Part shown: piece by piece, positions 1-15,822 of the stretch
How the letters are laid out: every line of letters begins with the position of its first letter
How positions within the stretch are numbered: position 1 is the first letter of the stretch
From: Butyrivibrio sp.
GTDB lineage: Bacteria; Bacillota; Clostridia; Lachnospirales; Lachnospiraceae
Direction: 5' to 3'
DNA length: 54,780 nt
NCBI GenBank assembly: GCA_017446685.1
Contig: JAFSQI010000045.1
Span: forward strand, 1 to 54,780
Made by a program: the position numbers and the translations under genes
The notes under the pieces: generated by a model
The model's database searches: none
Seen by the model: only the letters and a program-made list of their open reading frames with translations
What the model was told of the DNA's origin: nothing

Positions 1-37
1 AAATACAAAAACGCTTTCATCTAAATACAAAAAGTTG

Positions 38-66
38 TTGACAAGAAATAAAATATATGTTAATTT
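38..66 (+). promoter_or_regulatory. Promoter of the rplJ-rplL operon
   Basis: A consensus -35 TTGACA (38-43) is followed after 17 bp by TAATTT (61-66). It lies just upstream of the L10 leader, so transcription would start near 73. Confidence 0.6.
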
Positions 67-97
67 ACTAAAGGTTGTCCAATATATGTATGACAAC

Positions 98-208
98 ATG
101 CCGAAGACAGCAGGTGTTCAATTTATGAACGTAATGATTTATTCGCCTGCCGAGGAAAAGTTTAAACAGACTTTTTACCTCTCGGATTGTCTTCGAGAGG
201 TTTTTTTT
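98..208 (+). ncRNA. L10 leader (ribosomal autoregulatory leader with attenuator)
   Basis: The 5' untranslated region carries the hallmark blocks of the Firmicutes L10 leader: CCGAAGACAGCAGGTG near 101, and GCCTGCCGAGGAAAAG near 145, which pairs with it. Downstream, a hairpin with CCTCTCG (178-184) and CGAGAGG (194-200) is followed by eight T residues. The L10(L12)4 complex binds this leader and favours termination. The weak open frame over this region is not a gene. Confidence 0.9.
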
Positions 209-238
209 CGGCGGTAAATTCTATAAGGAGGTAAAAAG

Positions 239-781
239 ATGGCAAAGGTTGAACTTAAGAAGCCTGTAGTAGAAGAGATTTCTGCTAAGATTAAAAACGC
301 ACAGGCTGTCGTACTTGTAGATCACCGCGGACTTACTGTTGCACAGGATACTGAGCTTCGTAAGAAACTTCGTCAAGAAGGTGTTTCATATAAGATTTAC
401 AAGAATACGATGATGAATTTCGCATTCAAGGGAACAGATTATGAGCAGTTAGGAGATCTTCTTAATGGTCCTAGCGCTATGGCAGTTTCTGAGACAGATC
501 CTGCAGCTCCAGCTCGTGTTCTTTATGAGTTTGCAAAGACTGCTAAGGCTCTCGAAATTAAGGGTGGTGTTATAGAAGGTAAATTCTATGATGCAGCTGC
601 AATGACAGATATTGCTACTATTCCTTCAAGAGATGTACTTCTTTCAAGATTGCTTGGTTCTATGCAGTCACCTATCACAAACTTCGCACGCGTTATCAAG
701 CAGATCGCTGAGAAGGATGGAGAGGCAGCTCCTGCTGAGGCAGAGGCACCTGCAGCTGAAGAAACACCTGCAGCAGAGTAA
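239..781 (+). CDS. rplJ: 50S ribosomal protein L10
   Basis: This 180-residue protein forms the base of the ribosomal L7/L12 stalk, binding 23S rRNA and anchoring L7/L12 dimers through its C-terminal helix. The N-terminal half has the family pattern KNAQAVVLVDHRGLTVAQ and YKIYKNTMM. The C-terminus ends in an Ala/Glu-rich tail (about residues 160-180) that is common in Clostridia. A strong TAAGGAGG site lies 7 bp before the ATG. It is cotranscribed with rplL and controlled by the leader upstream. Confidence 0.97.
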   Translation: MAKVELKKPVVEEISAKIKNAQAVVLVDHRGLTVAQDTELRKKLRQEGVSYKIYKNTMMNFAFKGTDYEQLGDLLNGPSAMAVSETDPAAPARVLYEFAKTAKALEIKGGVIEGKFYDAAAMTDIATIPSRDVLLSRLLGSMQSPITNFARVIKQIAEKDGEAAPAEAEAPAAEETPAAE

Positions 782-871
782 TATCGTGTTTACTAATGTA
801 GTATTACTACATAATCCGCATAACGGATTGTTACAAAAAAATCTAATTATACTTAATGGAGGTATATTATA

Positions 872-1246
872 ATGGCAAAGTTATCTACAGCAGAAATTAT
901 TGATGCTATCAAAGAGCTTACAGTGCTCGAGTTAAATGATCTTGTAAAGGCTTGTGAGGAAGAGTTCGGCGTATCTGCAGCAGCAGGCGTTGTAGTTGCA
1001 GCAGCTCCTGGAGCAGCAGCAGCTGGCGAAGAGAAGACTGAGTTCAACGTAGAGCTTACAGAAGTTGGTCCTAACAAGGTTAAGGTTATCAAGGTTGTTC
1101 GTGAGATCACAGGCCTTGGACTTAAGGAAGCAAAGGATCTCGTAGACGGCGCTCCTAAGATGATCAAGGAGAACGCTTCTAAGGCTGAAGCTGATGATAT
1201 CAAGGCTAAGGTTGAGGCTGAAGGCGCTAAGGTTACTCTTAAGTAA
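872..1246 (+). CDS. rplL: 50S ribosomal protein L7/L12
   Basis: This 124-residue stalk protein has the usual three parts: an N-terminal dimerisation domain ([18 protein letters not shown]), an Ala/Gly-rich hinge at about residues 35-55, and the C-terminal factor-binding domain with [15 protein letters not shown]. The stalk recruits translation GTPases. It sits 90 bp after rplJ with its own TGGAGG site and is followed by a terminator. Confidence 0.97.
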
Positions 1247-1276
1247 TTTTTGTTTCTTTGATATTAGAATTATAAT

Positions 1277-1319
1277 AAAAGAGGGAAAATTCAAATCTTT
1301 GGGTTTTTCCTCTTTTTTT
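1277..1319 (+). terminator. Terminator after rplL
   Basis: AAAGAGGGAAAA pairs with TTTTTCCTCTTT and is followed by a T run. It closes the ribosomal operon before a new promoter begins at 1321. Confidence 0.85.
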
Positions 1320-1320
1320 G

Positions 1321-1349
1321 TTGACATATTCGTACTCTCAAAATAAAAT
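1321..1349 (+). promoter_or_regulatory. Promoter of the lasso-peptide cluster
   Basis: TTGACA (1321-1326), a 17-bp spacer and TAAAAT (1344-1349) form a near-consensus sigma-A promoter 48 bp ahead of the first gene of the cluster. Confidence 0.7.
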
Positions 1350-1396
1350 AGTCTACGTGTTGCGGTAAATAGTTTTTTACAGTGTAGTGGAAGATA

Positions 1397-2635
1397 ATGA
1401 AGACTGTTGAGAGAGATTTTTTAGAACTAACCAAGAAAGCGATAAGATGCGATTATAGTAGAGATGATTCTTTTAAAGAGACAGATTGGAATGAAGTTTT
1501 TAATCTGGCAAATGAAAATTCTATTGTTGCAATTCTTTTTGACGTAGTTAAAAATCAGGAAACGCTTCCTGAAGATTTGAAAAAAATCTGGGATTTATAT
1601 AAATTTAAGACATATGTTTGGCAACGTAGGCATTTTATTGCATTAGTTGACCTGCTAAAAGAGTTAAACGATCAGGAAATTGATTATGCGTCATTTAAAG
1701 GAGTTGTGATATCTCAGGGATATCCTAATCCTTCTTATAGAATTTCTGCAGATTCAGATATTCTCGTAGATGTTTCTGACAGACCTAAGGTATCCAAGCT
1801 TATTGAAAAGAGGGGATATGTTTTAAATCCACTCAAGACCAAAGAAAAAGTTTTTGTATATTATAATAAAGAAATTGATCATGTAATCGAATTACATACC
1901 AGCGTTTTCGAAGACTATGAAGGTGGCAAAATCGATATTTTGAAGGAAGCCGGCATAGAAAGAGCTGATCATAGAATAAATTGTGAAATTGAAGACAATA
2001 TTATCAGAACACTTAATCCTACTGATCATTTGATTTATCAGATATTTCATATTGTCAAACATTTCATTTTGGAAGGTGCCGGAATACGTTTCTTTACAGA
2101 TATAGTACTATTTATAAAAAAGTATGGTGAAGAAATAGACTATGAAATTTTCTGGAAATGGATGGATAAATGTGGTTACACGCAATTTGCTGAGAATTTT
2201 CTAACTGTATGTGTCAACTATTTTGGGATGGATGATAAAGTTTTATATAGACACGAAAACAATACGGACCCTGCAGTTATAGAAGCGCTTCTTATTGATT
2301 TTGTTTATAGAGGCGATGAAGAAAAACTTCGTAGCAAAAAGTGGATGATTGCAGATGAAATGGAGCAATTTCTTGTAGGAAAACCACATCAGGCAGAAAA
2401 AAAATCCCTTGGTGATATTGTTGAATTTCTATTTCCAATGCCGGGAATGTTAGATGATGCATATGGTTATGCCAAGGAAAAACATTTTTTGCTTCCGATT
2501 GCATGGATACACAGAGGATTTAAGAAAATCATATGGCTTATATTTGACAGGGCCAGCGATCAGAAAAAGTGCGCTATCAGACTTGAAAACAGAGTTGACC
2601 TGCTTGGCAGAGTTGGATTAATTGATGAGGATTGA
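1397..2635 (+). CDS. Nucleotidyltransferase-family protein of the lasso cluster
   Basis: A 412-residue protein of the uncharacterised nucleotidyltransferase family (NTP_transf_5-like). The family core is visible at about residues 100-125: KGVVISQGYPNP followed by Arg and the ADSDILV motif, whose Asp119 and Asp121 would be the metal ligands of a polymerase-beta-type fold. Such genes recur in Firmicutes lasso clusters next to a kinase, and a role in modifying the peptide or its phosphate is proposed in the field. The exact reaction cannot be read here. It is the first gene after the cluster promoter. The start follows a TGGAAG site. Its few cysteines and the lack of a signal peptide indicate a cytoplasmic enzyme. 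Confidence 0.8.
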   Translation: MKTVERDFLELTKKAIRCDYSRDDSFKETDWNEVFNLANENSIVAILFDVVKNQETLPEDLKKIWDLYKFKTYVWQRRHFIALVDLLKELNDQEIDYASFKGVVISQGYPNPSYRISADSDILVDVSDRPKVSKLIEKRGYVLNPLKTKEKVFVYYNKEIDHVIELHTSVFEDYEGGKIDILKEAGIERADHRINCEIEDNIIRTLNPTDHLIYQIFHIVKHFILEGAGIRFFTDIVLFIKKYGEEIDYEIFWKWMDKCGYTQFAENFLTVCVNYFGMDDKVLYRHENNTDPAVIEALLIDFVYRGDEEKLRSKKWMIADEMEQFLVGKPHQAEKKSLGDIVEFLFPMPGMLDDAYGYAKEKHFLLPIAWIHRGFKKIIWLIFDRASDQKKCAIRLENRVDLLGRVGLIDED

Positions 2636-2701
2636 TTTGGCTTGTGTTATTTACGAGGAAATATAAATGTTTGAACAGGGTAAAAAGATTATAGAGTTGG
2701 T

Positions 2702-3136
2702 ATGAGTGTTTCGTTATATAGATTTATAAAGCTTAATAAATTTAAGAAAATGACATTGGCTATTTGGTGGCTTACTGCGTTTTACAGAATGCAAATGCTT
2801 ATTGTTCCATCAAAAAAGTTGGAGCATAGATGGGGGCAAAAAGGTGTGGAATCTCCTGAAAAAGATACAATGGAGCATTACAGATATGCCTATGTGGTAT
2901 CAATGGAAGTAAATAGAATCGCAGATAAGACACCGTGGGAGAGCAAGTGTCTTGTAAGAGCCTTAACTGCCAGATTTTTGCTTCATCGTAAGGGAATAGA
3001 AACGACATTGTATCTTGGAGTAGGAAAAGATGAAAAAGGTAAGATGATTGCTCATTCCTGGATTAGATGTGGTGAAATGTACGTTACTGGTGGAAATGGC
3101 AAAAGCTATGCTACAGTTGCCAGGTTTTGTATGTAG
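2702..3136 (+). CDS. Lasso peptide biosynthesis B2 protein (leader peptidase)
   Basis: A 144-residue transglutaminase-fold cysteine protease of the lasso B2 family, which removes the leader from the precursor in an ATP-dependent reaction together with B1 and C. Residues 79-92 (WESKCLVRALTARF) hold the catalytic Cys83, and AHSW holds His118, followed by the usual GxMYVTGG strand. The N-terminal 35 residues are the hydrophobic helix typical of B2. The length is normal for a stand-alone B2, so no B1 is fused to it. Upstream, a 12-codon ORF (2668-2706) ends across this start, which may couple translation. Confidence 0.85.
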   Translation: MSVSLYRFIKLNKFKKMTLAIWWLTAFYRMQMLIVPSKKLEHRWGQKGVESPEKDTMEHYRYAYVVSMEVNRIADKTPWESKCLVRALTARFLLHRKGIETTLYLGVGKDEKGKMIAHSWIRCGEMYVTGGNGKSYATVARFCM

Positions 3137-3146
3137 GAATTTGAGC

Positions 3147-3280
3147 AGTTACTGTTCAGTTCCTGACCAGTAACTAAGCAATTTTGCAATTAAATCGCTT
3201 CGCGATGGGCAAAATTGCCACTTGAATCACTTTCTTACGCAGCCAGCAGCGTAGTGCTGGCTGCTGACTGAATAGTAACT
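3147..3280. repeat. MITE-like palindromic element, 134 bp
   Basis: Terminal inverted repeats AGTTACTGTTCAGT (3147-3160) and ACTGAATAGTAACT (3267-3280) match in 13 of 14 positions. Inside are three separate hairpins: 3147-3175 (arms AGTTACTG/CAGTAACT), 3178-3218 (GCAATTTTGC/GCAAAATTGC with inner ATCGC/GCGAT) and 3239-3264 (GCAGCCAGCA/TGCTGGCTGC). There is no coding potential. It fills the 265-bp gap between the B2 and kinase genes. Confidence 0.65.
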
Positions 3281-3401
3281 TTGAGCATCTATAGTAAGTG
3301 ACAATGCTCCAAAAGGATGTGCACAGATTTGGCTTCAAAAAAATCAGTTGAGTGCAAGATAAAATAGTAGATATGAATATGCGAATAATCGGAGAAAATT
3401 T

Positions 3402-4316
3402 ATGATCTATAAGTATTATTTATATGGAATTAATGTACAGTCTGAAATAGAAATCGAAGAAGCATATGCGAGGGATTTTGATACTGAGGCTGATGTAAAA
3501 GTGGTTTTAGGACAGATGCCTGATGATGTGAAAAAAATGTATGCAGATAAGAGCCTGGATGATTGGTATTTTGCTACTTCTGCACGTGAGCTTGCCTTTC
3601 GAGTTCCCAATGTGGCTGATTATTGGGTGACAAGCGATACTATAACAGTCAATCCTTTCAAAAATGCAAAAAAATCCGATGTTAAATGTTTTATTTTAGG
3701 AAGCTGCTTTGGATATTGCATGTTTCTAAGAAAAAAAGTAGTTATGCATGGCGGTGGTATTTCAAAAAATGGCAAAGGAGTAATAATTACAGGTGAATCC
3801 GGCGCCGGTAAGTCAACAGTTACCGACAGCCTTTTGAATAACGGCTTTTCTTTTATTGCAGATGATGTATGTGCATTGTCTGAAAACGTAGATAAGGTTC
3901 ATATAAATATGGCTTATCCACAACAGAAACTATGTAGAGATGCGGCAATTAATAAAGGATACGATCTTTCTGAGTTAATTTATATTAATGAAGATAGAGA
4001 TAAATTTGCTATCAGGTTAAAAGATGGTTATTTGCCTGACGGAGCAGATTTTGATTATTTATTTGAATTGGTTATTTCTGAAAATGATGACCTTTCTTTT
4101 AGAAGAGTTTCAGGTCATGAGAAACTCATGCTTATTTTGAGGAATATATACAGAGGTGATGATGGTTTTAGAACTTGGGGACTTCCTCCAGAATATATGC
4201 AGAAATGTTTAAAAATTGCTTCTACTATAGAAATTTATCAGATAGCAAGACCTAAGAACCTGAATACTCTACCTGATATCGTCAAATTTATTGAAGATAC
4301 GGTAAAAAATGATTGA
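3402..4316 (+). CDS. HPr kinase-like lasso peptide kinase
   Basis: A 304-residue protein with an HPr-kinase/phosphorylase-like C-terminal domain. The P-loop GESGAGKST is at residues 131-139, and a paired acidic motif IADDVCAL is near 152-159. The N-terminal 100 residues are a poorly conserved module, as in lasso-cluster kinases. Known relatives such as the paeninodin kinase phosphorylate the C-terminal serine of the precursor peptide. Both precursors of this cluster end in Ser, which fits. The start follows GGAGAAAATTT. The gene lies 23 bp before the C-protein start, so the two are probably cotranslated. It is not the catabolite-repression HprK: the sequence is divergent and the context is RiPP. 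Confidence 0.8.
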   Translation: MIYKYYLYGINVQSEIEIEEAYARDFDTEADVKVVLGQMPDDVKKMYADKSLDDWYFATSARELAFRVPNVADYWVTSDTITVNPFKNAKKSDVKCFILGSCFGYCMFLRKKVVMHGGGISKNGKGVIITGESGAGKSTVTDSLLNNGFSFIADDVCALSENVDKVHINMAYPQQKLCRDAAINKGYDLSELIYINEDRDKFAIRLKDGYLPDGADFDYLFELVISENDDLSFRRVSGHEKLMLILRNIYRGDDGFRTWGLPPEYMQKCLKIASTIEIYQIARPKNLNTLPDIVKFIEDTVKND

Positions 4317-4339
4317 ATAATTTGAGAGGCTTTATTTAT

Positions 4340-6292
4340 ATGTCAGCAATTTATGGAGCAATTGATTTAAAAGGTGATAGAGTTGATTCAAAACTGTTTA
4401 CTAATTTTGTGGATGAATATAAAAATTGCGTAATAGACAGAAATGAGCACATATTGGATGATAATGTGCTTATGGGGTGTGGAATACAATATTTTTACAA
4501 AAGGGCTGAAAAAGAGAAACTTCCGTTTAAAGACGAGGGCAGTGATATTTTTATAACTGCAGATTGTGTGCTTGATAATTATATTGAATTAAAAGAAGAA
4601 CTCGGCCTAAACGAAAATGCTGCTGATGGCGATATTATTTTAGCTGGTTACAGAAAATGGGGAAGAGATTGTGTATCTCATTTCAGAGGTCTCTTTGCTT
4701 TTGTGATTTATTCCAAAGAAAAAAATGAGATTTATGCTGCGGTGGATCAGTTTTCTCAGAGATGCCTTTTTTATCATATTAGAAATGGCATTTTTTATTT
4801 TTCTACGCTGTTTTTTCCGCTTCTGCAGGCTTCAGGTCTTAAATTTGAAGAAAATGAGAGGTGGCTGGTAGATACTGTTTCATTAAGGTCGCCGGTTATG
4901 CTTACTGAGCCGAAAGAAACGGCTCTAAAAGATGTTGTAAAAGTTGTTTCGGGAACATATATAGTAGTAAATTTTCTGGACAATGACCAGGTTAATATAT
5001 CAGAGAAAAGATATTATGATCCTAAAAAAACGATTCCTACTGAATGGACAATGACCTTAGAGGAAAGTGAAAAACTGGTCAGAAAAACTATGACTGATGT
5101 TCTTGAGAAAATTCTTAGAGAACAGGATAATGTCGCAGCTCAGTTAAGCTCAGGACTGGATTCATCTACTGTAGCATGTAATGCTGCAATAATATTAAAA
5201 AAACGTGGTGGTAAAGTTTTTAGTTATACTTCTGTTCCAAATAGTGATGCAGGTATGAAGAATACACGTGGGACACTTTATGATGAATCTGATATTGTAA
5301 AGCTTATTTGTTCCCAATATGATAATATCATACCTTCTTTTGTAGAATGTAAAGATAGAGACTTCTTGGAGAAAGTGCCTGATTACATTAATTTTTGGGA
5401 GCTTCCATGCAAATCACAGCAAAATGCAGTTTGGATTGAGGAAATATCTAAACAGGCACATTCATGTGGAAATCGGATTATTTTATCCGGAAGTACAGGC
5501 AATTGTACACTTTCGGCAGGGAATAGCACTGATCTTGCATATTATTATTTTAAACATTTTCATTTTATTAAAGCATATCATATGTTTGATATTTATAAAA
5601 AATATGGAATATCAAGGAAAGAAGTTTTTTCATATTTGTTGCAGGATATAATCAAATATTATAAATGGTATTTTGATTCGGATGATAAAGACTGCTACAA
5701 AAATAATGTTACACGAAGAGATATTGGTGAAAAATACAATTTAACAAAAAGATTTAGAAAGCATTTTATGCACTACTATCCATTTGCTAGTATGGAAAAA
5801 ATGCGTAAAGATATGTATATTCTTAATGCAAATGCCCAAATTGGCGAAATTGAGGTAAAGGACAGCTTGAAAAATGGTATTCTTTCAAGAGATCCAATGA
5901 GGACAGTTGAATTTAATGAAATGTGTTTTAGAATTCCTATTTATTGCTATGCTGAAAGAGACTATGATAGAAGACTTGTAAGAGTTGGAATGAAAGGAAT
6001 TGTTCCTGAAGAAGTTAGATGTAATGTTTTCCAGAGAGGTAGACAGTCTGGAGATAATTTATTTAGAGTTTCAAGATGCTGGAATAAAATCAGATCTAAG
6101 TGGACTGATAGTGTATATTCGAAAGAGGTATTACATTATTTAGATAAGAATAAGATAGACAATCTGGTAAAAGTTTTTGATAAAGGAATTGAAAAAGCAG
6201 ATTACATAGATGTACTTTTGATCGGAGATTTATATGCTTTTTCATTGTTTTTGTCTAAAGTAAGTAAATATTCTAATTCAGATTTGCAATAA
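4340..6292 (+). CDS. Lasso peptide macrolactam synthetase (C protein, asparagine synthetase-like)
   Basis: A 650-residue asparagine-synthetase B homologue that would adenylate the ring Asp/Glu of the precursor and close the isopeptide bond with the new N-terminus. The N-terminal glutaminase-like domain starts MSAIYGAID, lacking the Cys2 nucleophile of true glutamine amidotransferases, as usual for C proteins. The ATP pyrophosphatase motif SSGLDSS is at residues 270-276. I chose the ATG at 4340 rather than an in-frame TTG at 4313 because GAGAGG lies 10 bp upstream and the family begins at this Met. Precursor genes follow directly. Confidence 0.88.
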   Translation: MSAIYGAIDLKGDRVDSKLFTNFVDEYKNCVIDRNEHILDDNVLMGCGIQYFYKRAEKEKLPFKDEGSDIFITADCVLDNYIELKEELGLNENAADGDIILAGYRKWGRDCVSHFRGLFAFVIYSKEKNEIYAAVDQFSQRCLFYHIRNGIFYFSTLFFPLLQASGLKFEENERWLVDTVSLRSPVMLTEPKETALKDVVKVVSGTYIVVNFLDNDQVNISEKRYYDPKKTIPTEWTMTLEESEKLVRKTMTDVLEKILREQDNVAAQLSSGLDSSTVACNAAIILKKRGGKVFSYTSVPNSDAGMKNTRGTLYDESDIVKLICSQYDNIIPSFVECKDRDFLEKVPDYINFWELPCKSQQNAVWIEEISKQAHSCGNRIILSGSTGNCTLSAGNSTDLAYYYFKHFHFIKAYHMFDIYKKYGISRKEVFSYLLQDIIKYYKWYFDSDDKDCYKNNVTRRDIGEKYNLTKRFRKHFMHYYPFASMEKMRKDMYILNANAQIGEIEVKDSLKNGILSRDPMRTVEFNEMCFRIPIYCYAERDYDRRLVRVGMKGIVPEEVRCNVFQRGRQSGDNLFRVSRCWNKIRSKWTDSVYSKEVLHYLDKNKIDNLVKVFDKGIEKADYIDVLLIGDLYAFSLFLSKVSKYSNSDLQ

Positions 6293-6314
6293 TGTTACAA
6301 TTTTGATAGAAATA

Positions 6315-6343
6315 TTGTAATGGATTATCTGACAGATTATAAT
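6315..6343 (+). promoter_or_regulatory. Promoter of the precursor-peptide genes
   Basis: TTGTAA (6315-6320), a 17-bp spacer and perfect TATAAT (6338-6343). Transcription would start about 30 bp before the first precursor ATG, allowing the peptides to be made in excess over the enzymes. Confidence 0.7.
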
Positions 6344-6378
6344 AAGGCTATCTTTTTTGGGAAAGGAAGTGGAGAGGT

Positions 6379-6519
6379 ATGAAGAATTGGAATACACCAG
6401 AAATTGAAGAAGTAGTTTTCTCTGAAACAGCTCATGGTGGAGATTCATGGACAATCATTGATAATACATGGACTGATAAAGATGGTCAGATTGTGGATGA
6501 ATTTGGTACTCAGAGTTGA
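6379..6519 (+). CDS. Lasso peptide precursor A1 (46 residues)
   Basis: A short gene in an otherwise empty gap, preceded by GGAGAGG. The leader begins MKNWNTPEIEEVVF, with the Trp4-x-x-Pro7 pattern of Firmicutes precursors, and reaches the conserved E-T-A-H-G-G at residues 16-21. If the core starts at Gly20, Asp28 would close a 9-residue ring; if at Gly21, an 8-residue ring. The tail is long and ends EFGTQS with a C-terminal Ser, the residue phosphorylated by lasso kinases. It is paralogous to the next gene: Trp4, Glu8-Ile9-Glu10, Phe14, Glu16-Thr17, His19-Gly-Gly and Asp28 are shared. Confidence 0.82.
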   Translation: MKNWNTPEIEEVVFSETAHGGDSWTIIDNTWTDKDGQIVDEFGTQS

Positions 6520-6541
6520 TTAGTGGATAGGAGAAAGCAAT

Positions 6542-6691
6542 ATGAAAAAATGGGTTGATGCTGAAATAGAGGCAATTAGTTTTGAAGAAACAATGCATGG
6601 TGGAACTAGTGAATTAGAGCATGACAGTTATTGGACAGATGATGGACGTCACCTTGGTTCAAGAGGATCACAGGCGCCTATTCCTTCATAA
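6542..6691 (+). CDS. Lasso peptide precursor A2 (49 residues)
   Basis: The second precursor starts 22 bp after the first, with TAGGAGA upstream. The leader MKKWVDAEIEAISF and the junction E-T-M-H-G-G (residues 16-21) match precursor A1, but Pro7 is replaced. Candidate ring acceptors are Asp28 (position 9 from Gly20 or 8 from Gly21, the only acceptor shared with A1) and Glu26 (position 7 from Gly20). The tail ends APIPS, again with a terminal Ser. The core sequence otherwise differs fully from A1, so the cluster should make two distinct products. Confidence 0.82.
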   Translation: MKKWVDAEIEAISFEETMHGGTSELEHDSYWTDDGRHLGSRGSQAPIPS

Positions 6692-6721
6692 CTAATTACT
6701 AATAAGCTATTGTTATGATTT

Positions 6722-6755
6722 GAAAGAACAGTCATTTGGGCTGTTCTTTTTATTT
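6722..6755 (+). terminator. Terminator after the precursor genes
   Basis: AAAGAACAG (6723-6731) pairs with CTGTTCTTT (6741-6749), followed by a T-rich stretch. It closes the lasso cluster. Confidence 0.85.
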
Positions 6756-6839
6756 TGTGGGTTTGCCAAAAAAATAAGTTGGTTGTATAGTATTGAAGGT
6801 AATGTATTCTTATAAATTTTTTTTAAGAGGGAGAATGAA

Positions 6840-8072
6840 ATGAAAATAGCAGTAGCTGGAACCGGATATGTTGGTTTGTCGATTGCGACATTATTATCTC
6901 AAAACCATGAGGTCCATGCAGTAGATGTAATACCAGAGAAAGTTGAAAAAATAAATAAGAGAATATCACCTATTCAGGATGAATATATAGAAAAGTATCT
7001 TTCTGAAAAGAAACTTAATCTTGTCGCAACTCTTGATGCGAAGGAAGCTTATACTGATGCAGAATTTGTAGTTATTGCTGCTCCAACCAATTATGATGCA
7101 AAGACACAATACTTTGATACATCTGCAGTGGAAAATGTAATAGAGCTTGTGCTCAAATACAATCCTGATGCAATTATGGTAATCAAGTCTACAATTCCTG
7201 TTGGTTATACACGTTCAGTAAGGAAAAAATTTGGAACCAAAAATATTATTTTCAGTCCTGAGTTTTTGAGAGAGAGTAAAGCTCTTTATGATAATCTATA
7301 TCCATCAAGAATCATTGTTGGAACTGATTTGGATGATGAGAGATTAGTTAATGCTGCACATACTTTTGCAGGACTTTTGCAGGAGGGGGCTATAAAAGAA
7401 AATATTGATACTTTGTTTATGGGATTTACAGAGGCTGAGGCAGTTAAGCTTTTTGCCAATACTTATCTTGCTCTTAGAGTATCATATTTTAACGAATTGG
7501 ATACTTATGCTGAGATGAAGGGGCTGGATGCACGGCAAATCATCAATGGTGTATGTCTTGATCCCAGAATAGGATCTCATTACAATAATCCTTCATTTGG
7601 ATATGGTGGATATTGTCTGCCAAAAGATACCAAACAGCTTCTTGCCAATTATAAGGATGTACCTCAGAATATGATGTCTGCGATTGTGGAAAGTAACAGA
7701 ACACGAAAGGACTTTATTGCTGACAGAGTACTTGAAAAGGCTGATTATTATCATGAAAATGGTGAATATTCCAGCGGCAAGGAAAAAGAGGTAATTGTAG
7801 GCGTTTACAGACTTACAATGAAATCTAATTCCGATAACTTCCGCCAGAGTTCTATTCAGGGTGTAATGAAACGAATCAAGGCAAAGGGTGCAACAGTAAT
7901 TATCTATGAGCCAACTCTTAAGGATGGAGAGACATTCTTTGGCAGTAAAGTAGTAAATAATCTTGAGGAATTCAAGAAAAAGAGCCATAGTATTATTGCA
8001 AACAGATATGATTCTTGCCTTGATGATGTGGCAGATAAGGTTTATACAAGAGATATATTTAAGAGAGATTAA
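6840..8072 (+). CDS. ugd: UDP-glucose 6-dehydrogenase
   Basis: A 410-residue NAD-dependent enzyme that oxidises UDP-glucose to UDP-glucuronate for capsule or exopolysaccharide. The Rossmann motif GTGYVG is at residues 7-12. The catalytic loop [13 protein letters not shown] carries Cys259, and [14 protein letters not shown] and [20 protein letters not shown] are close to the short E. coli-type Ugd. The protein is about 20 residues longer through an insert near 300 ([13 protein letters not shown]). It is followed 27 bp later by a glycosyltransferase, which suggests a surface-glycan role. Confidence 0.93.
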
Positions 8073-8099
8073 GATATATAGATTTGGAGACAGTTGGTA

Positions 8100-9299
8100 A
8101 TGAGAGTTCTTATGGTAAATAAATTCCTCTATCCAAATGGAGGATCTGAGACATACATTTTTAAACTTGGTGAAGCGCTTATTAGTCGTGGACATGAAGT
8201 GCAGTATTTTGGAATGGAACATGAAGGAAGATGTGTTGGAAATGCTGTGAATGCCTATACATCAGATATGGATTTTCATAATGCTGGTAAACTGGAAAAG
8301 ATGACATATCCGCTAAAAACAATTTATTCAAAAGAGGCTCGTGAAAAAATAAGACTCGTGCTTGATAATTTTAAGCCTGATGTTGTTCATCTCAACAATT
8401 TTAATTATCAATTGACTCCTTCAATTATTCTTGAAATTGTGAAGTGGAGAAAACAGACCGGAAACCATTGCAAAATAGTATTTACAGCTCATGATTATCA
8501 GCTTGTTTGCCCAAATCATATGTGTAATAATCCAAACACTCATGAAAATTGTGAGAAATGTTTAGGTGGTCATTTTTTGAACTGTACAAAAGGAAAGTGT
8601 ATTCATGGAAGTACTGCAAAGAGTTTTATTGGTACGTTGGAAGCTTCTTTTTGGAAAATGAAAGGTACATACAAATATATTGATACCTTTATTTGCTGTA
8701 GTGAGTTTATGAAGACCAAGCTTGATTCCAATCCTCTTTTTGCTTCTAAAACAGTTGCAATACATAATTTCCTTGATGCAATTGAGTGGAAAGATGTCGA
8801 GAAGGAAGACTATATCCTTTACTTTGGCAGATATTCAGAGGAAAAAGGAATTAGAACTCTTATAGAAGCAGCGAGAAGACTCCCGGAAGTGAATTTTGTT
8901 TTTGCAGGAAAAGGACCTCTTGAAAATCTGTTAAGCGATGTATATAACATAAAAAATGTTGGATTCAAGAGCGGAAAAGAATTGGAGGATCTAATCAGAA
9001 AAGCGAAGGCATCTGTATATCCTTCTGAATGGTACGAGAATTGTCCTTTTTCAGTTATGGAATCACAATTGTACGGAACTCCTGTGATTGGAGCTGATAT
9101 TGGTGGCATTCCTGAACTTATAAAAAATGGAAAGACAGGACTCCTATACAAAAGCGGTGACGCAGATGCATTATGTGATGCGATACATACTCTATGGCAG
9201 GATGATTCAAAGGCAAACAAAATGCATGAAGAGTGTAAGACACTTAGCTTTGATACAATAGATGAGTATCTTGATAAGATAATGAAGATATATGCATAA
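8100..9299 (+). CDS. Family 4 glycosyltransferase
   Basis: A 399-residue GT-B fold glycosyltransferase. The N-terminal domain begins MRVLMVNKFLYPNGGSETY (acceptor side). The C-terminal nucleotide-sugar domain has LYFGRYSEEKGIRTLI and the retaining-GT motif PSEWYENCPFSVMESQLYG with its paired Glu residues. A Cys-rich insert (residues about 139-162, with CPNHMCNN and CEKC) resembles a small metal site. I use the ATG at 8100, 9 bp after GGAGA, instead of an in-frame TTG at 8094. With ugd upstream it probably builds a uronic-acid-containing glycan; donor and acceptor are unknown. Confidence 0.88.
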   Translation: MRVLMVNKFLYPNGGSETYIFKLGEALISRGHEVQYFGMEHEGRCVGNAVNAYTSDMDFHNAGKLEKMTYPLKTIYSKEAREKIRLVLDNFKPDVVHLNNFNYQLTPSIILEIVKWRKQTGNHCKIVFTAHDYQLVCPNHMCNNPNTHENCEKCLGGHFLNCTKGKCIHGSTAKSFIGTLEASFWKMKGTYKYIDTFICCSEFMKTKLDSNPLFASKTVAIHNFLDAIEWKDVEKEDYILYFGRYSEEKGIRTLIEAARRLPEVNFVFAGKGPLENLLSDVYNIKNVGFKSGKELEDLIRKAKASVYPSEWYENCPFSVMESQLYGTPVIGADIGGIPELIKNGKTGLLYKSGDADALCDAIHTLWQDDSKANKMHEECKTLSFDTIDEYLDKIMKIYA

Positions 9300-9344
9300 A
9301 AAAATCAGTTGTCTGTTAATTTAATAGGCAACTGATTTTTTTTC
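9299..9344 (+). terminator. Terminator after the glycosyltransferase
   Basis: AAATCAGTTG and CAACTGATTT form the stem, followed by T8. It ends the ugd-glycosyltransferase transcript. Confidence 0.85.
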
Positions 9345-9473
9345 ATAGGAAATTGCTCCGCATTCTTATTTAGAAATATGCTTGCCAAATAATATTTTAT
9401 GCAATATAATAGTTTCAAATTTATAGATTGTGACTTTAATATAGTTTGAAAAAATATTAAGAGGTATATAATA

Positions 9474-10298
9474 ATGAGTGATAAGATTAGCTTTTATGAA
9501 ATGGCAAAATCCAGAAGAAGTGTCAGAACATTTGATGGAAAAGGCTTAGAGCAAAGTGTACTTGATAATTTACATGAGTATGCTAAAACTATTGAAAATC
9601 CTTTTAGCATCCCTGTTGAATTTCTTTTTCTTAACGCTAAGGAACATAAGTTGTCCAGTCCTGTAATTGTTGGCGAGGAATATTATATCAGCGCAAAGGT
9701 TAAAATGCAGGAAAATGCTGAAGCTGCATATGGATACAGCTTTGAAAATCTTTTGATGAAAGCTCATGAAATGGGACTTGGCACTGTCTGGATAGGCGGA
9801 ACAATGCCAAGGGAGAAGTTTGAGAACGCTTCAAATCTGCAGGATGGTGAAGTGATGCCATGTGTCAGCCCGATTGGTGTAACAGCGTCTAAAATGGGTG
9901 TCAAAGAAGTACTTATGAGAAAGGGTGTTAAGGCTGATACCAGACTTGATTTTGAAAAACTGTTCTTTGATGGCAGCTTTGATAAGCCACTTAATAAGCA
10001 GAGTGCTATGGAAAGAGGACTTGTTAATTCACTTGAAGCAGTCAGAATAGCTCCTTCCGCTGTAAATAAGCAGCCCTGGAGAGTTGTTATAAAAGGCAAT
10101 ACTGCTCATTTTTATGAGAAAAAGGATAAGGGGTTTGACGCAGGGGATTATGATCTTCAGAAGATTGATGTTGGAATAGCTCTTTATAATTTTGAACAGC
10201 AGATGCTCTGTGAGGGTAGAAAGCCTGTATTTGAGCAGAAAGATCCTGGAATTTCCCATGCTCAGGATATCGAGTATATTGCTTCATACAGGTGGTAA
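9474..10298 (+). CDS. Nitroreductase family protein (FMN)
   Basis: A 274-residue protein of the TM-nitroreductase branch, which combines the two halves of the FMN-binding fold in one chain. The N-terminus FYEMAKSRRSVRTFDGKG is the usual FMN phosphate-binding start, and the C-terminal half has RIAPSAVNKQPWRVVI. Members reduce nitro or quinone compounds with NAD(P)H, but the substrate is unknown. GAGGTATATA precedes the ATG. It is followed 57 bp later by a PNPOx-like gene, and the pair may work in flavin-linked detoxification. Confidence 0.85.
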   Translation: MSDKISFYEMAKSRRSVRTFDGKGLEQSVLDNLHEYAKTIENPFSIPVEFLFLNAKEHKLSSPVIVGEEYYISAKVKMQENAEAAYGYSFENLLMKAHEMGLGTVWIGGTMPREKFENASNLQDGEVMPCVSPIGVTASKMGVKEVLMRKGVKADTRLDFEKLFFDGSFDKPLNKQSAMERGLVNSLEAVRIAPSAVNKQPWRVVIKGNTAHFYEKKDKGFDAGDYDLQKIDVGIALYNFEQQMLCEGRKPVFEQKDPGISHAQDIEYIASYRW

Positions 10299-12047: not shown

Positions 12048-13802
12048 ATGGTAAAGACACTATTAAAAGAACTCAAGGAGTTTAAACTCCCATCAATATT
12101 GACTCCGTTATGCATGATTGGCGAAGTTATTGCCGAGATGATAATTCCTATTCTAATGGCAAAAATTGTCGATGATGGTATTAACGGTCAGGACATGGGA
12201 CTGATTTTCCAAACAGGCGGCATGATGATTGTAATTGCTCTGTTTGGACTTATAGCAGGTCTTGGAGGCGCTTATTTTGGTTCGAAGGCTTCTGCAGGAT
12301 TTGCAAGAAATTTGAGAAAGGCTATGTTTGATAATATACAGACTTTTTCTTTTTCAAATATTGACAAGTTTTCAACTTCAGGTCTTGTAACAAGACTTAC
12401 TACAGACGTTACCAACATTCAGAATGCTTATATGATGCTTCTTAGAATGGCTATGAGAGCACCTTCTTCAATGATTGTTGCCATGGTCATGTCATTCATT
12501 ATAAGCCCAAGACTTGCAAGCATTTATCTGATTGCTGTAATTTTCCTTGGGATTATCATTATTTTTGTAATGCAGAAAGCTACAAAATATTTCAAAGAAG
12601 TATTTGAAAAATATGACAAGCTTAATGAGAGTGTTCAGGAAAATGTTTCAGCTATAAGAGTCGTAAAGGCATATGTTCGTGAAGATTATGAAAATGACAA
12701 GTTCAAAAAGGCAGCACTTAATATCTACAATATGTTTGTAAAAGCCGAAATGAATGTGGTATATATGAGCCCTATCATGACAGGTACTGTCTATGCCTGC
12801 ATTCTTCTTATAAGCTGGATCGGTGCGCATATGATAGTGGGCGGAAGTCTTACAACAGGTGCGCTTATGAGTCTTTTGACTTACTGCATGAATATTCTTA
12901 TGTCTCTTATGATGCTGGCAATGATATTTGTTATGATCACTATGGCATCAGCAAGCGGAAAGCGTATTGCAGAAGTAATTGAGGAAAAAACAGATATTAC
13001 AAACGGAAGTAATCCCATTAAAGAAGTTAAGGATGGAAGTATTTCTTTTGAACATGTTAATTTTGCTTACAATAAGACTTCAGAAGAACCTGTGTTAAAA
13101 GATATTAATATTACAATAAATTCCGGCGAAACAATAGGTATTATCGGAGGAACGGGTTCTGCCAAGTCTTCGCTCGTTAACCTTATCAGCAGATTGTATG
13201 ATGTTACTGCCGGATCAGTCAAGGTTGGAGGTGTAGATGTAAAAGAGTATGATCTTGAAACACTTCGAGACCAGGTATCTGTTGTTCTTCAAAAAAATGT
13301 TCTGTTTTCAGGAACTATTCTTGATAACTTAAGGTGGGGTGACAAGAATGCCACAGAGGAAGAGTGCAAAAGAGCCTGTGAAATGGCATGTGCAGACGAA
13401 TTTATTTCAAGAATGCCACTTGGCTACAATACGCAGATAGAGCAGGGCGGTGCCAACGTATCCGGTGGTCAGAGACAAAGACTATGTATAGCAAGAGCAC
13501 TTTTGAAAAAGCCAAAGATCCTTATTCTCGATGACTCAACAAGTGCAGTTGATACAGCAACAGATGCAAAGATCAGAAAAGCATTTGCAGAGGAAATTCC
13601 CGGAACCACAAAGCTTATCATTGCGCAGAGAATCAGTTCAGTTCAGAACTGTGACAGAATTATTGTTATGGATGACGGAAAGATTGATGGCTTTGGAACA
13701 CACGATGAACTGATAAAGAGCAATGACATTTACAGAGAAGTTTATGAATCCCAGACAGGTGCTGCCGGAGATGCTGATTTTGATCAGGCTTCAAATGCAT
13801 GA
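12048..13802 (+). CDS. ABC exporter, degenerate-site subunit (BmrC-like)
   Basis: A 584-residue half-transporter with six membrane helices followed by an ATPase domain. Its Walker A reads GGTGSAKSS (Ala before Lys), the signature VSGGQ is intact, and after Walker B the catalytic Glu is replaced by Asp (ILILDDSTSAVD). This is the usual non-catalytic-site partner of heterodimeric exporters such as BmrCD or LmrCD. A GGGAG site precedes the ATG. The next gene encodes the partner. It is controlled by the MarR upstream and probably exports drugs, bile or peptides. Confidence 0.92.
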   Translation: MVKTLLKELKEFKLPSILTPLCMIGEVIAEMIIPILMAKIVDDGINGQDMGLIFQTGGMMIVIALFGLIAGLGGAYFGSKASAGFARNLRKAMFDNIQTFSFSNIDKFSTSGLVTRLTTDVTNIQNAYMMLLRMAMRAPSSMIVAMVMSFIISPRLASIYLIAVIFLGIIIIFVMQKATKYFKEVFEKYDKLNESVQENVSAIRVVKAYVREDYENDKFKKAALNIYNMFVKAEMNVVYMSPIMTGTVYACILLISWIGAHMIVGGSLTTGALMSLLTYCMNILMSLMMLAMIFVMITMASASGKRIAEVIEEKTDITNGSNPIKEVKDGSISFEHVNFAYNKTSEEPVLKDINITINSGETIGIIGGTGSAKSSLVNLISRLYDVTAGSVKVGGVDVKEYDLETLRDQVSVVLQKNVLFSGTILDNLRWGDKNATEEECKRACEMACADEFISRMPLGYNTQIEQGGANVSGGQRQRLCIARALLKKPKILILDDSTSAVDTATDAKIRKAFAEEIPGTTKLIIAQRISSVQNCDRIIVMDDGKIDGFGTHDELIKSNDIYREVYESQTGAAGDADFDQASNA

Positions 13803-13884
13803 TTACGGATTCGCAAATAAATCTCATTGTTTTGGCAGATTTAAGTCAGATATAAACTTTTGTTTATACAGGAGGAATAGTTAA

Positions 13885-15822
13885 ATGGCAGATAATAAAG
13901 TAATAAAAGGTGGTCCGGGTGGCGGAAACAGACGCGGAATGCCAAGACCAAAGGTTCAGAACCCCGGTGCTCTTTTCAAAAGAATAATGGGATATGTCTT
14001 TAAATACTATCCTGTTCATATGGTAACAGTACTTGTTTGTATTTTGCTTACAGTTTTTTCAAGCGTACAGGGTACTCTTTTTACAAAAACTCTTATAGAT
14101 TCCTATATTCAGCCGATGCTTGATACGGGAAGCAATGATTACGGCCCGCTTCTTGTTGCAATGGGAAAAGTTGCAATCTTTTATGCAATCGGTGTAATAG
14201 CAGCCTTTGTACAGGCGAAGGTAATGGTTTATATCAACCAGGGTACACTAAAAAGACTTCGTGAAGAACTCTTTGAGCATATGGAGAGCCTTCCAATCAA
14301 GTACTTTGATACAAATGCCCACGGCGATATCATGTCAATTTACACCAACGATATTGATACCTTGAGACAGATGATAAGCCAGAGTATTCCACAGCTTTTA
14401 AGCAGTGCGATCACAATTGTGAGCGTTTTGATTTCTATGGTTGTACTGAGCATTCCGCTTACACTTATTACTCTTTTGATGGTTGGAGTTATGATGTTTT
14501 GTTCAGCCAAGGCTACGGCAGCTTCAGGAAAAAACTTTGTGGCTCAGCAGAAAAATATCGGTGCTCTTAATGGATACATTGAAGAGATGATGTCCGGACA
14601 AAAGGTCATAAAGGTCTTTAACCATGAAGAAGAGTCAATCGAAAAATTTGATGAGTTAAATGAAATGCTCTATCAAAGTGCATTTAAGGCAAACGGATTT
14701 TCCGGAGCACTTGGACCTATCAATACACAGCTTGGTAATACAAGTTACGTACTTTGCGCAATGATCGGTGGTGCAATAGCTCTTTCAGACAGCGTTGCAG
14801 TCGGATTTACAGTAGGTGCGCTGGCAAGCTTCCTTTCCTTTAATAAGAGCTTTAGTATGCCAATCAACCAGGTAAGTATGCAGTTCAATTCAATTATCAT
14901 GGCACTTGCGGGAGCAGAGCGTATATTCAGACTTCTTGATGAAAAGCCGGAGACAGATGACGGATATGTCATGCTTGTTGATGCCGAGGAGAAAAACGGA
15001 GAAGTTGTTGAGGCAGATCATCATACAGGACACTGGGCTTGGAAACACTATCACAAGGCTACTGATACAACAACCTATCAGCCAATGGAAGGTGATGTTA
15101 CCTTCAATGGAGTTGATTTTGGATATACTGATGAAAAGATGGTGCTTCATGATATCGTATTGCATGCACTTCCGGGTCAGAAGATTGCATTTGTAGGTTC
15201 TACCGGAGCAGGTAAAACTACAATTACCAACCTCATCAACAGATTCTATGATATTCAGGATGGTAAGATCAGATATGACAATATCAATATTAATAAGATA
15301 AAGAAAGCAGACCTTCGCCGTTCTCTTGGAATTGTGCTTCAGGATACGCATCTTTTTACTGGTACGGTAAAAGAAAATATCCGATATGGAAAACTTGATG
15401 CAACGGATGAAGAGGTAATTGCAGCAGCTAAGCTTGCAAATGCCCACAGCTTTATAAAACGTCTTCCTGATGGATACGACACAATGCTCACAGGAGACGG
15501 AGCTAATCTTTCTCAGGGACAAAGACAGCTTCTTGCGATTGCCAGAGCAGCTATCGCAGATCCGCCTGTTCTTATTCTTGATGAAGCAACTTCTTCTATT
15601 GATACCAGAACTGAGAAAATTGTTCAGGATGGTATGGACAGACTGATGAAGGGTAGAACTACATTTGTTATTGCGCACAGACTTTCAACTGTAAGAAACA
15701 GTGATTGCATCATTGTTCTTGAGCAGGGCAGAATTGTAGAGCAGGGTACACATGATGAGCTTATCGCCAAGAAACAGCGTTATTATCAGCTCTACACAGG
15801 TATGAAGTCTGAAACAGCCTGA
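13885..15822 (+). CDS. ABC exporter, catalytic-site subunit (BmrD-like)
   Basis: A 645-residue half-transporter. A Gly/Arg-rich N-terminus is followed by six helices, a roughly 40-residue insert rich in His and Trp (TGHWAWKHYHKAT, near residues 380-400) and an ATPase domain with canonical Walker A STGAGKTT and Walker B VLILDEATSSID. Its signature is altered to LSQGQ. The pairing of a good Glu with an altered signature here, and the reverse in the partner, yields one active ATP site. AGGAGG precedes the ATG. This exporter could also serve the lasso cluster, but nothing links them directly. Confidence 0.92.
   Translation: MADNKVIKGGPGGGNRRGMPRPKVQNPGALFKRIMGYVFKYYPVHMVTVLVCILLTVFSSVQGTLFTKTLIDSYIQPMLDTGSNDYGPLLVAMGKVAIFYAIGVIAAFVQAKVMVYINQGTLKRLREELFEHMESLPIKYFDTNAHGDIMSIYTNDIDTLRQMISQSIPQLLSSAITIVSVLISMVVLSIPLTLITLLMVGVMMFCSAKATAASGKNFVAQQKNIGALNGYIEEMMSGQKVIKVFNHEEESIEKFDELNEMLYQSAFKANGFSGALGPINTQLGNTSYVLCAMIGGAIALSDSVAVGFTVGALASFLSFNKSFSMPINQVSMQFNSIIMALAGAERIFRLLDEKPETDDGYVMLVDAEEKNGEVVEADHHTGHWAWKHYHKATDTTTYQPMEGDVTFNGVDFGYTDEKMVLHDIVLHALPGQKIAFVGSTGAGKTTITNLINRFYDIQDGKIRYDNININKIKKADLRRSLGIVLQDTHLFTGTVKENIRYGKLDATDEEVIAAAKLANAHSFIKRLPDGYDTMLTGDGANLSQGQRQLLAIARAAIADPPVLILDEATSSIDTRTEKIVQDGMDRLMKGRTTFVIAHRLSTVRNSDCIIVLEQGRIVEQGTHDELIAKKQRYYQLYTGMKSETA

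Follow-up and report, generated by a model that had tools for sequence, protein, structure and literature searches.

Candidate precursors of two lasso peptides in a Butyrivibrio gene cluster that lacks its own B1 and exporter

We analysed a stretch of 54,780 nucleotides (the window), which is the whole of one contig (C131) in the genome of a Butyrivibrio sp. (G000; 3.24 Mb in 137 contigs, 88.75% complete), and identified two small open reading frames, A1 and A2, as putative precursors of two lasso peptides and new members of a family that is already predicted in print. The explanation that we favour, with slightly better than even confidence, is that these are two lasso precursors cut so that the leader threonine lies at position -3, with nine-residue rings, and that they depend on a distant B1 protein and a distant exporter. 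The genes on the contig run in the order rplJ-rplL, N, B2, K, C, A1, A2, UDP-glucose dehydrogenase, and glycosyltransferase; the features to which we refer below, some by comparison with the related genome G251, are as follows.

1277-1316: terminator-like hairpin behind rplL, 5' of the promoter-like site of N
1321..1349, + strand: promoter-like TTGACA-17-TAAAAT before N
1397..2635, + strand: N, PF14907 nucleotidyltransferase-like protein (E = 2e-43), occupying the place of D and B1 in G251
2702..3136, + strand: B2, leader peptidase (NF033537, 76.5 bits; cut-off 33)
3137..3401, no strand: structured non-coding stretch of 265 nt between B2 and K
3402..4316, + strand: K, HprK-like kinase (PF07475, E = 7.3e-10)
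4340..6292, + strand: C, lasso cyclase of the asparagine-synthetase type (PF00733, E = 2.6e-14; PF13537, E = 3.4e-16; quick tree)
6315..6343, + strand: promoter-like TTGTAA-17-TATAAT before A1
6379..6519, + strand: A1, putative lasso precursor, 46 aa (ATG start, Shine-Dalgarno-like sequence, held-out profile, G251 orthologue)
6542..6691, + strand: A2, putative lasso precursor, 49 aa (ATG start, Shine-Dalgarno-like sequence, held-out profile, G251 orthologue)
6722..6750, + strand: terminator-like 12-pair hairpin after A2

The original prediction described two frames of 46 and 49 codons with ribosome sites, and both are present, each with its ATG and a Shine-Dalgarno-like sequence. All residues listed there as common to the two (Trp4, Glu8-Ile9-Glu10, Phe14, Glu16-Thr17, His19-Gly20-Gly21, and Asp28) were found in both, and the leader of A2 reads W-x-x-A rather than W-x-x-P. 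It had also put forward a search with a hidden Markov model of lasso precursor families. Neither frame matched a family of Pfam (E up to 1) or NCBIfam (E up to 10), whereas a purpose-built profile trained on 96 other precursors, from which sequences of the window and of its own genome were excluded, picked out A1 and A2 (E of 1.7e-9 and 3.4e-6, respectively) from the 1510 six-frame segments of the window (next best, 0.55), with a best E of 0.046 on 20 shuffled windows; the independence of this held-out profile is imperfect, because its training precursors had been gathered by an iterated leader profile with A1 and A2 among its eight seeds. A motif fitted to A1 and A2 matched 2 of the 219 small ATG frames of the window, versus 1 of 15,245 in shuffles. 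It seems reasonable to expect two products, as had been proposed. The two frames had further been placed in a gap with a promoter and a terminator of its own; both sites could be located, but across positions 1200-9500 there were 44 promoter-like sites versus 37.5 in shuffles (sd 6.7) and 5 terminator-like sites versus 3.0 (sd 2.1), so that the two sites are plausible members of classes that are not, or hardly, enriched.

That the putative precursors lie beside a C-type lasso synthetase is borne out by the NF033537 match of B2, the kinase, the clade in which the cyclase falls, the held-out profile, and an orthologous two-precursor cluster. Cys83 and His118 of B2 are invariant in all 62 aligned B2 proteins, and K has His116, GESGAGKS at 131 (with the P-loop Lys), and Asp154-Asp155, candidates for the His-Lys-Asp-Asp set of kinases of paeninodin-like phosphorylated lasso peptides. 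On the B2 tree, the window protein falls inside a Lachnospiraceae clade (100/96 for 23 rows) and groups with the proteins of loci L073 and L082 (100/98), and not with the B2 proteins encoded ahead of D elsewhere in the genus. Similarly, C is a lone branch within a Lachnospiraceae clade (100 for 42 rows, SH-aLRT alone) on a tree of 58 rows from which many Bacilli were left out; its match to NF033535 has an E of 2.3e-51 but reaches 175 bits, far under the cut-off of 525. Searches of PDB sequences with phmmer returned no match for B2 (E up to 0.1) or C (E up to 0.001). The stretch between B2 and K (fold z, -2.65) has 48 nt that recur in locus L070 at 92% identity, and it spaces the two genes by 265 nt versus ~27 nt in G251. 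Rfam models matched positions 1-10000 of the window solely at 83-215 (L10 leader).

As for the chromosomal surroundings, rplL is followed by rpoB in all 11 relatives examined; in the window, rplL is followed by the lasso cluster (region 1246-1397), and lasso genes likewise follow rplL in G251. Another contig of the same genome (C99; L032, 3514-3941) keeps a stretch like that 5' of rpoB in relatives, directly preceded by a lasso precursor and a cyclase. This third G000 precursor is of the H-x-W type (L032, 3771-3941) and has its own cyclase (4069-6036); neither B1 nor B2 nor a kinase was found in the 11 kb that was read.

G251 is the nearest relative found, its C being 57% identical to that of the window, the best among 79 genomes of the genus besides the window's own. 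Its genes run rplJ-rplL-D-B1-B2-K-C-A-A-glycosyltransferase, with identities to the window of 70% for B2, 64% for K, and 88% for the glycosyltransferase. The two G251 precursors are letter for letter precursors #1 and #2 of Butyrivibrio sp. YAB3001 (PMC7533575, Table 3), so that the two-precursor layout is conserved, orthologues are already in print, and A1 and A2 would be new members of the predicted family. In either cluster B2, K, and C are followed by two precursors with Gly20 and Asp28, arranged in matching order. In contrast to the window, D and B1 lie inside the G251 cluster and no match to N occurs in the 19.9 kb read, and the whole precursors are just 46-47% identical. In the portion of PMC7533575 available to us, Thr at -3, Gly1, and a ring to Asp at 8-9 are predicted, and genes for an HPr kinase, a nucleotidyltransferase, PqqD, and a glycosyltransferase are reported near such clusters.

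To place the junction and the ring, we compared 101 distinct precursors, two of them from G251 and 99 from the earlier gathering, which were assigned by locus to a Lachnospiraceae-type set of 56 and a set of 45 from Bacilli and others; a Clostridium locus, L085, is counted in the second set, although on the B2 tree it falls with the first. The second set includes the paeninodin and pseudomycoidin type of Bacilli, which resembles the window in its W-x-x-P leader, T-x-x-Gly, genes C, K, B2, and N, and C-terminal Ser, and differs in the position of the ring acid. More specifically, the second set has Gly at Thr+3 in 42 of 45 and Asp at Thr+10 in 41 (Thr+11 in 3), whereas of the 56 precursors in the Lachnospiraceae set, 36 have Gly at Thr+3 and 38 have Asp at Thr+11; an acid occupies Thr+10 in 16 (11 Asp, 5 Glu), and 3 have no acid at either position. 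Where Gly is at Thr+3 in the latter set, the acid is at Thr+11 in 30 precursors and at Thr+10 in 6. Lasso rings typically have 7-9 residues (PMC5067487), and, as far as the accessible part of PMC10368454 goes, all precursors reported earlier than the Ile(-2) case described there had Thr at -2, while Ile, Val, or Ala was predicted in others. A1 has no acid at Thr+8 to +10 and so has no Asp or Glu at core position 7-9 if Thr is at -2. The same holds for 26 of the 56 precursors, A1 included, in which Asp is at Thr+11 and no acid fits Thr(-2) with a ring of 7-9 (versus 3 of 45 in the other set); in these, therefore, either the junction has moved by one residue or the ring has ten. Either reading departs from the measured cases found in the literature. 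A2 has Glu26 (Thr+9) as a possible alternative acid, which is not aligned with the family Asp.

We rank first, as somewhat the likelier solution though unproven, the nine-residue ring Gly20-Asp28 with Thr17 at -3, one of the two rings of the original prediction and in print as a prediction since 2020. Both precursors would then have a leader of residues 1-19, ring acid Asp28, and a C-terminal Ser, the core being Gly20-Ser46 (27 aa) in A1 and Gly20-Ser49 (30 aa) in A2. This assignment keeps to known ring sizes, gives an invariant Gly1 in the T-x-x-G group, and leaves Glu solely at the shorter distance; a ring of 7-9 is feasible with Thr(-3) in 54 of the 56, versus 28 with Thr(-2). The other ring proposed, Gly21-Asp28 (8 residues), finds little support, because the conserved Gly is the one at Thr+3. 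The original interpretation is supported as to lasso precursors, and in part as to the ring and the junction.

Not far from this assignment in our estimation, and a substantial possibility even if the lesser of the two, is the ordinary placement of Thr17 at -2, in which B2 would cut between residue 18 and His19 and the ring would run over ten residues from His19 to Asp28. We computed values of 1209.504 for a paeninodin core starting with Ala at Thr+2 and 1173.985 for one starting with Gly. The measured core ion, m/z 1209.5 (PMC5067487), which is the one measured core of a family member in the literature consulted, fits the former and not the latter, so that in paeninodin Thr would be at -2 and the conserved Gly would be residue 2; the Thr(-3) cut printed for a Bacillus cereus precursor (PMC7533575) conflicts with this placement. 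The pattern T-[conserved]-[variable]-Gly is similar in both sets, and an H-x-W-like subfamily keeps His at Thr+2 in 11 of 13 members with N, K, E, A, D, Q, or H at Thr+3. His at Thr+2 also occurs in all three precursors found in G000, in which one B2 was found. Against a ten-residue ring stand the typical ring sizes, the G251 precursors, which have Glu or Asp at Thr+2 while keeping Gly, and our literature search, in which no ring of ten residues was found; a measured example of Thr(-3) was likewise absent from the literature searched.

On the favoured reading with Thr at -3, the RRE protein B1 would bind the W-x-x-P/A-x-I leader and pass it to B2, which would cut near Thr17, and the cyclase C would join the new N-terminus, most likely Gly20, to Asp28. 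K would then phosphorylate the C-terminal Ser, with glycosylation by N as a possible further step. These last roles are taken from paeninodin and pseudomycoidin, in which K accounts for phosphorylation of the C-terminal Ser and N for a hexose on the phosphoserine; the part of PMC9266682 that was accessible leaves open whether N itself attaches the sugar. Both window precursors end in Ser, as do all 45 of the Bacilli-and-other set, versus just 29 of the 56 in the Lachnospiraceae set, so that phosphorylation may not be general in the latter.

The local cluster has neither the RRE protein B1 nor the exporter D, both of which are present in the G251 cluster; the window has two further ABC exporter genes at 12048-15822, whose products share 28-30% identity with D. 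The sole PqqD-type protein (B1, RRE) found in G000 is encoded on contig C46 (14467-14667). Its two matches among PDB sequences are both lasso B1 proteins, 9x90 (E = 1.2e-13), labelled as a lasso PqqD family chaperone, and TbiB1 5v1u (E = 3.8e-8). It shares 51% identity with the B1 inside the G251 cluster, and on a tree with few columns it falls among Lachnospiraceae B1 proteins encoded in clusters (100/98 for 26 rows). Its gene lies inside an exopolysaccharide operon, flanked by the genes of a sugar transferase of the Bac_transf type and of a Wzz/AAA_31 protein and surrounded by Alg14, GT28, and GT2 genes (all by Pfam) and one gene labelled Wzy without a Pfam match; B1 sits between the same two genes in 10 of the 15 B1-bearing genomes (61 searched). 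C46 also carries a PF14907 gene, an exporter, a response regulator, and a histidine kinase. This exporter (C46:27162) is 77% identical to D of G014, and such a D is directly preceded by B2 in G014, G212, G019, G226, G214, G210, and G231, where G000 has a glycosyltransferase. As C46 gave no match to B2, a cyclase, or a precursor, a full lasso set once held there is suggested by the relatives.

A single B1 and a single B2 were found in the assembly, with no further B2 scoring above the cut-off, and a second B1 may be missing, given a completeness of 88.75%. The facing ends of C46 and C131 match consecutive stretches of G251 (77% and 86% identity), except for ~210 nt at the C46 end, so that B1 probably lies ~32 kb upstream of the window B2, plus the gap; a B1 on an unlinked contig, which we had also considered, is weakened by this synteny, with C46 probably abutting C131. 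B1 of the exopolysaccharide operon and the C46 exporter most likely serve the cluster from a distance. The 51% identity of this B1 to that of G251 and the W-x-x-A of the A2 leader count against such help. The two incomplete lasso sets may function together as a single system. Separation is wider in other species: a cyclase-precursor module of G014 lies at least 136 kb from both ends of its contig, and the B1 and B2 genes of that genome are on different contigs from it.

In a survey of 61 genomes from the genus, PqqD matches occur in 15, and a B2 over the cut-off occurs in exactly these 15; B2-model matches of any strength occur in 40 of the 61, those under the cut-off lying in longer frames, and in G228 stops fall within the B2 stretch. 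A strong C (over 300 bits) is present in 13 of these 15 genomes, that of G210 being half length, whereas the remaining 46 have no strong C and their listed matches stay below 130 bits. The 29 leader matches are likewise confined to 13 of these 15 genomes and absent from the 46; these counts ignore kinship among the genomes, the training set of the leader profile included genus members, and the leader counts are a lower bound, because the profile missed a G020 precursor that the earlier gathering finds. The B2, C-profile, and leader searches covered the 61 genomes, whereas those with PqqD (matches in 24) and with the window C covered all 79. In 79 fetched loci, picked by similarity to ten cyclases with the window C among them, B1 and B2 occur together in 12 of 36 from Lachnospiraceae, in contrast to 37 of 40 from Bacilli (2 of 3 others); for loci of at least 15 kb, the counts are 10 of 25 and 33 of 35.

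Several further modules were encountered along the way. A second divergent cyclase-like family, whose proteins begin MSGI (L250, 3727-5940; L251, 6059-8246; L248, 3737-5914), has lasso-type leaders adjoining and no B1 or B2 in the stretches read. Precursor-like frames with Glu at Thr+10 (L249, 5774-5974; L247, 6618-6791 and 6944-7186) have no cyclase in the stretch read, which for L247 stops at the contig end. Locus L037 carries three copies of one precursor (8185-8343, 9483-9641, and 9834-9992), two identical and one slightly altered.

The absence of B1 and D in comparison with G251 might instead mean that the cluster is decaying and that its two precursors are no longer processed. The structured insertion between B2 and K would agree with this, as would the precursor dN/dS values against G251 (~0.51 for A1 and ~0.22 for A2), which indicate weaker constraint than in K and C (NG86, ~0.15, with dS near saturation; dS was not computable for B2 and the glycosyltransferase). 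Yet the frames of N, B2, K, C, A1, and A2 are all intact, C46 carries B1, D, and two regulator genes, and the C99 module of the same genome is also without B1 and B2 nearby, and we consider decay improbable. Still further down the scale, and hardly to be credited, is that A1 and A2 are chance frames or encode precursors of a different RRE-dependent RiPP type, for instance the linear polyphosphorylated peptides, whose leaders resemble lasso leaders (PMC13381572, as far as available). Those systems have an RRE of their own beside the lasso one, a SipW-like peptidase, and no cyclase, whereas here a cyclase and B2 are present, one RRE was found in the genome, and the leaders have Trp, as in paeninodin-like precursors, rather than Tyr; the held-out profile matches and the G251 orthologues also speak against this reading. 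A bolder combination, which we offer tentatively and think rather unlikely, is that many Lachnospiraceae lasso peptides keep Thr(-2) together with ten-residue rings (His19-Asp28 here), and that a B1 in an exopolysaccharide operon without B2 works with the B2 of a B1-less cluster, two systems having been fused by reciprocal loss.

In the literature searched we found neither a remark that a ten-residue ring leaves the Thr(-3) cut unproven nor a lasso system with B1 in an exopolysaccharide operon away from the cyclases. The nearest case comes from the accessible part of PMC13381572, where capsular polysaccharide loci of Bacilli are reported to contain lasso clusters; these are alike in having lasso genes among polysaccharide genes; here, in contrast, B1 is one gene in an exopolysaccharide operon of fixed order, apart from the cyclase and precursors. 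The family itself was already predicted in rumen bacteria, and the window pair would add new members. The family breaks one of two common rules for lasso precursors, either Thr at -2 or a ring of 7-9 residues. Because one B1 and one B2 would serve several cyclase-precursor modules in this dispersed layout, such systems would be missed or truncated by searches that look for complete local clusters. The layout also connects lasso peptides with exopolysaccharide genes in bacteria of the rumen type.
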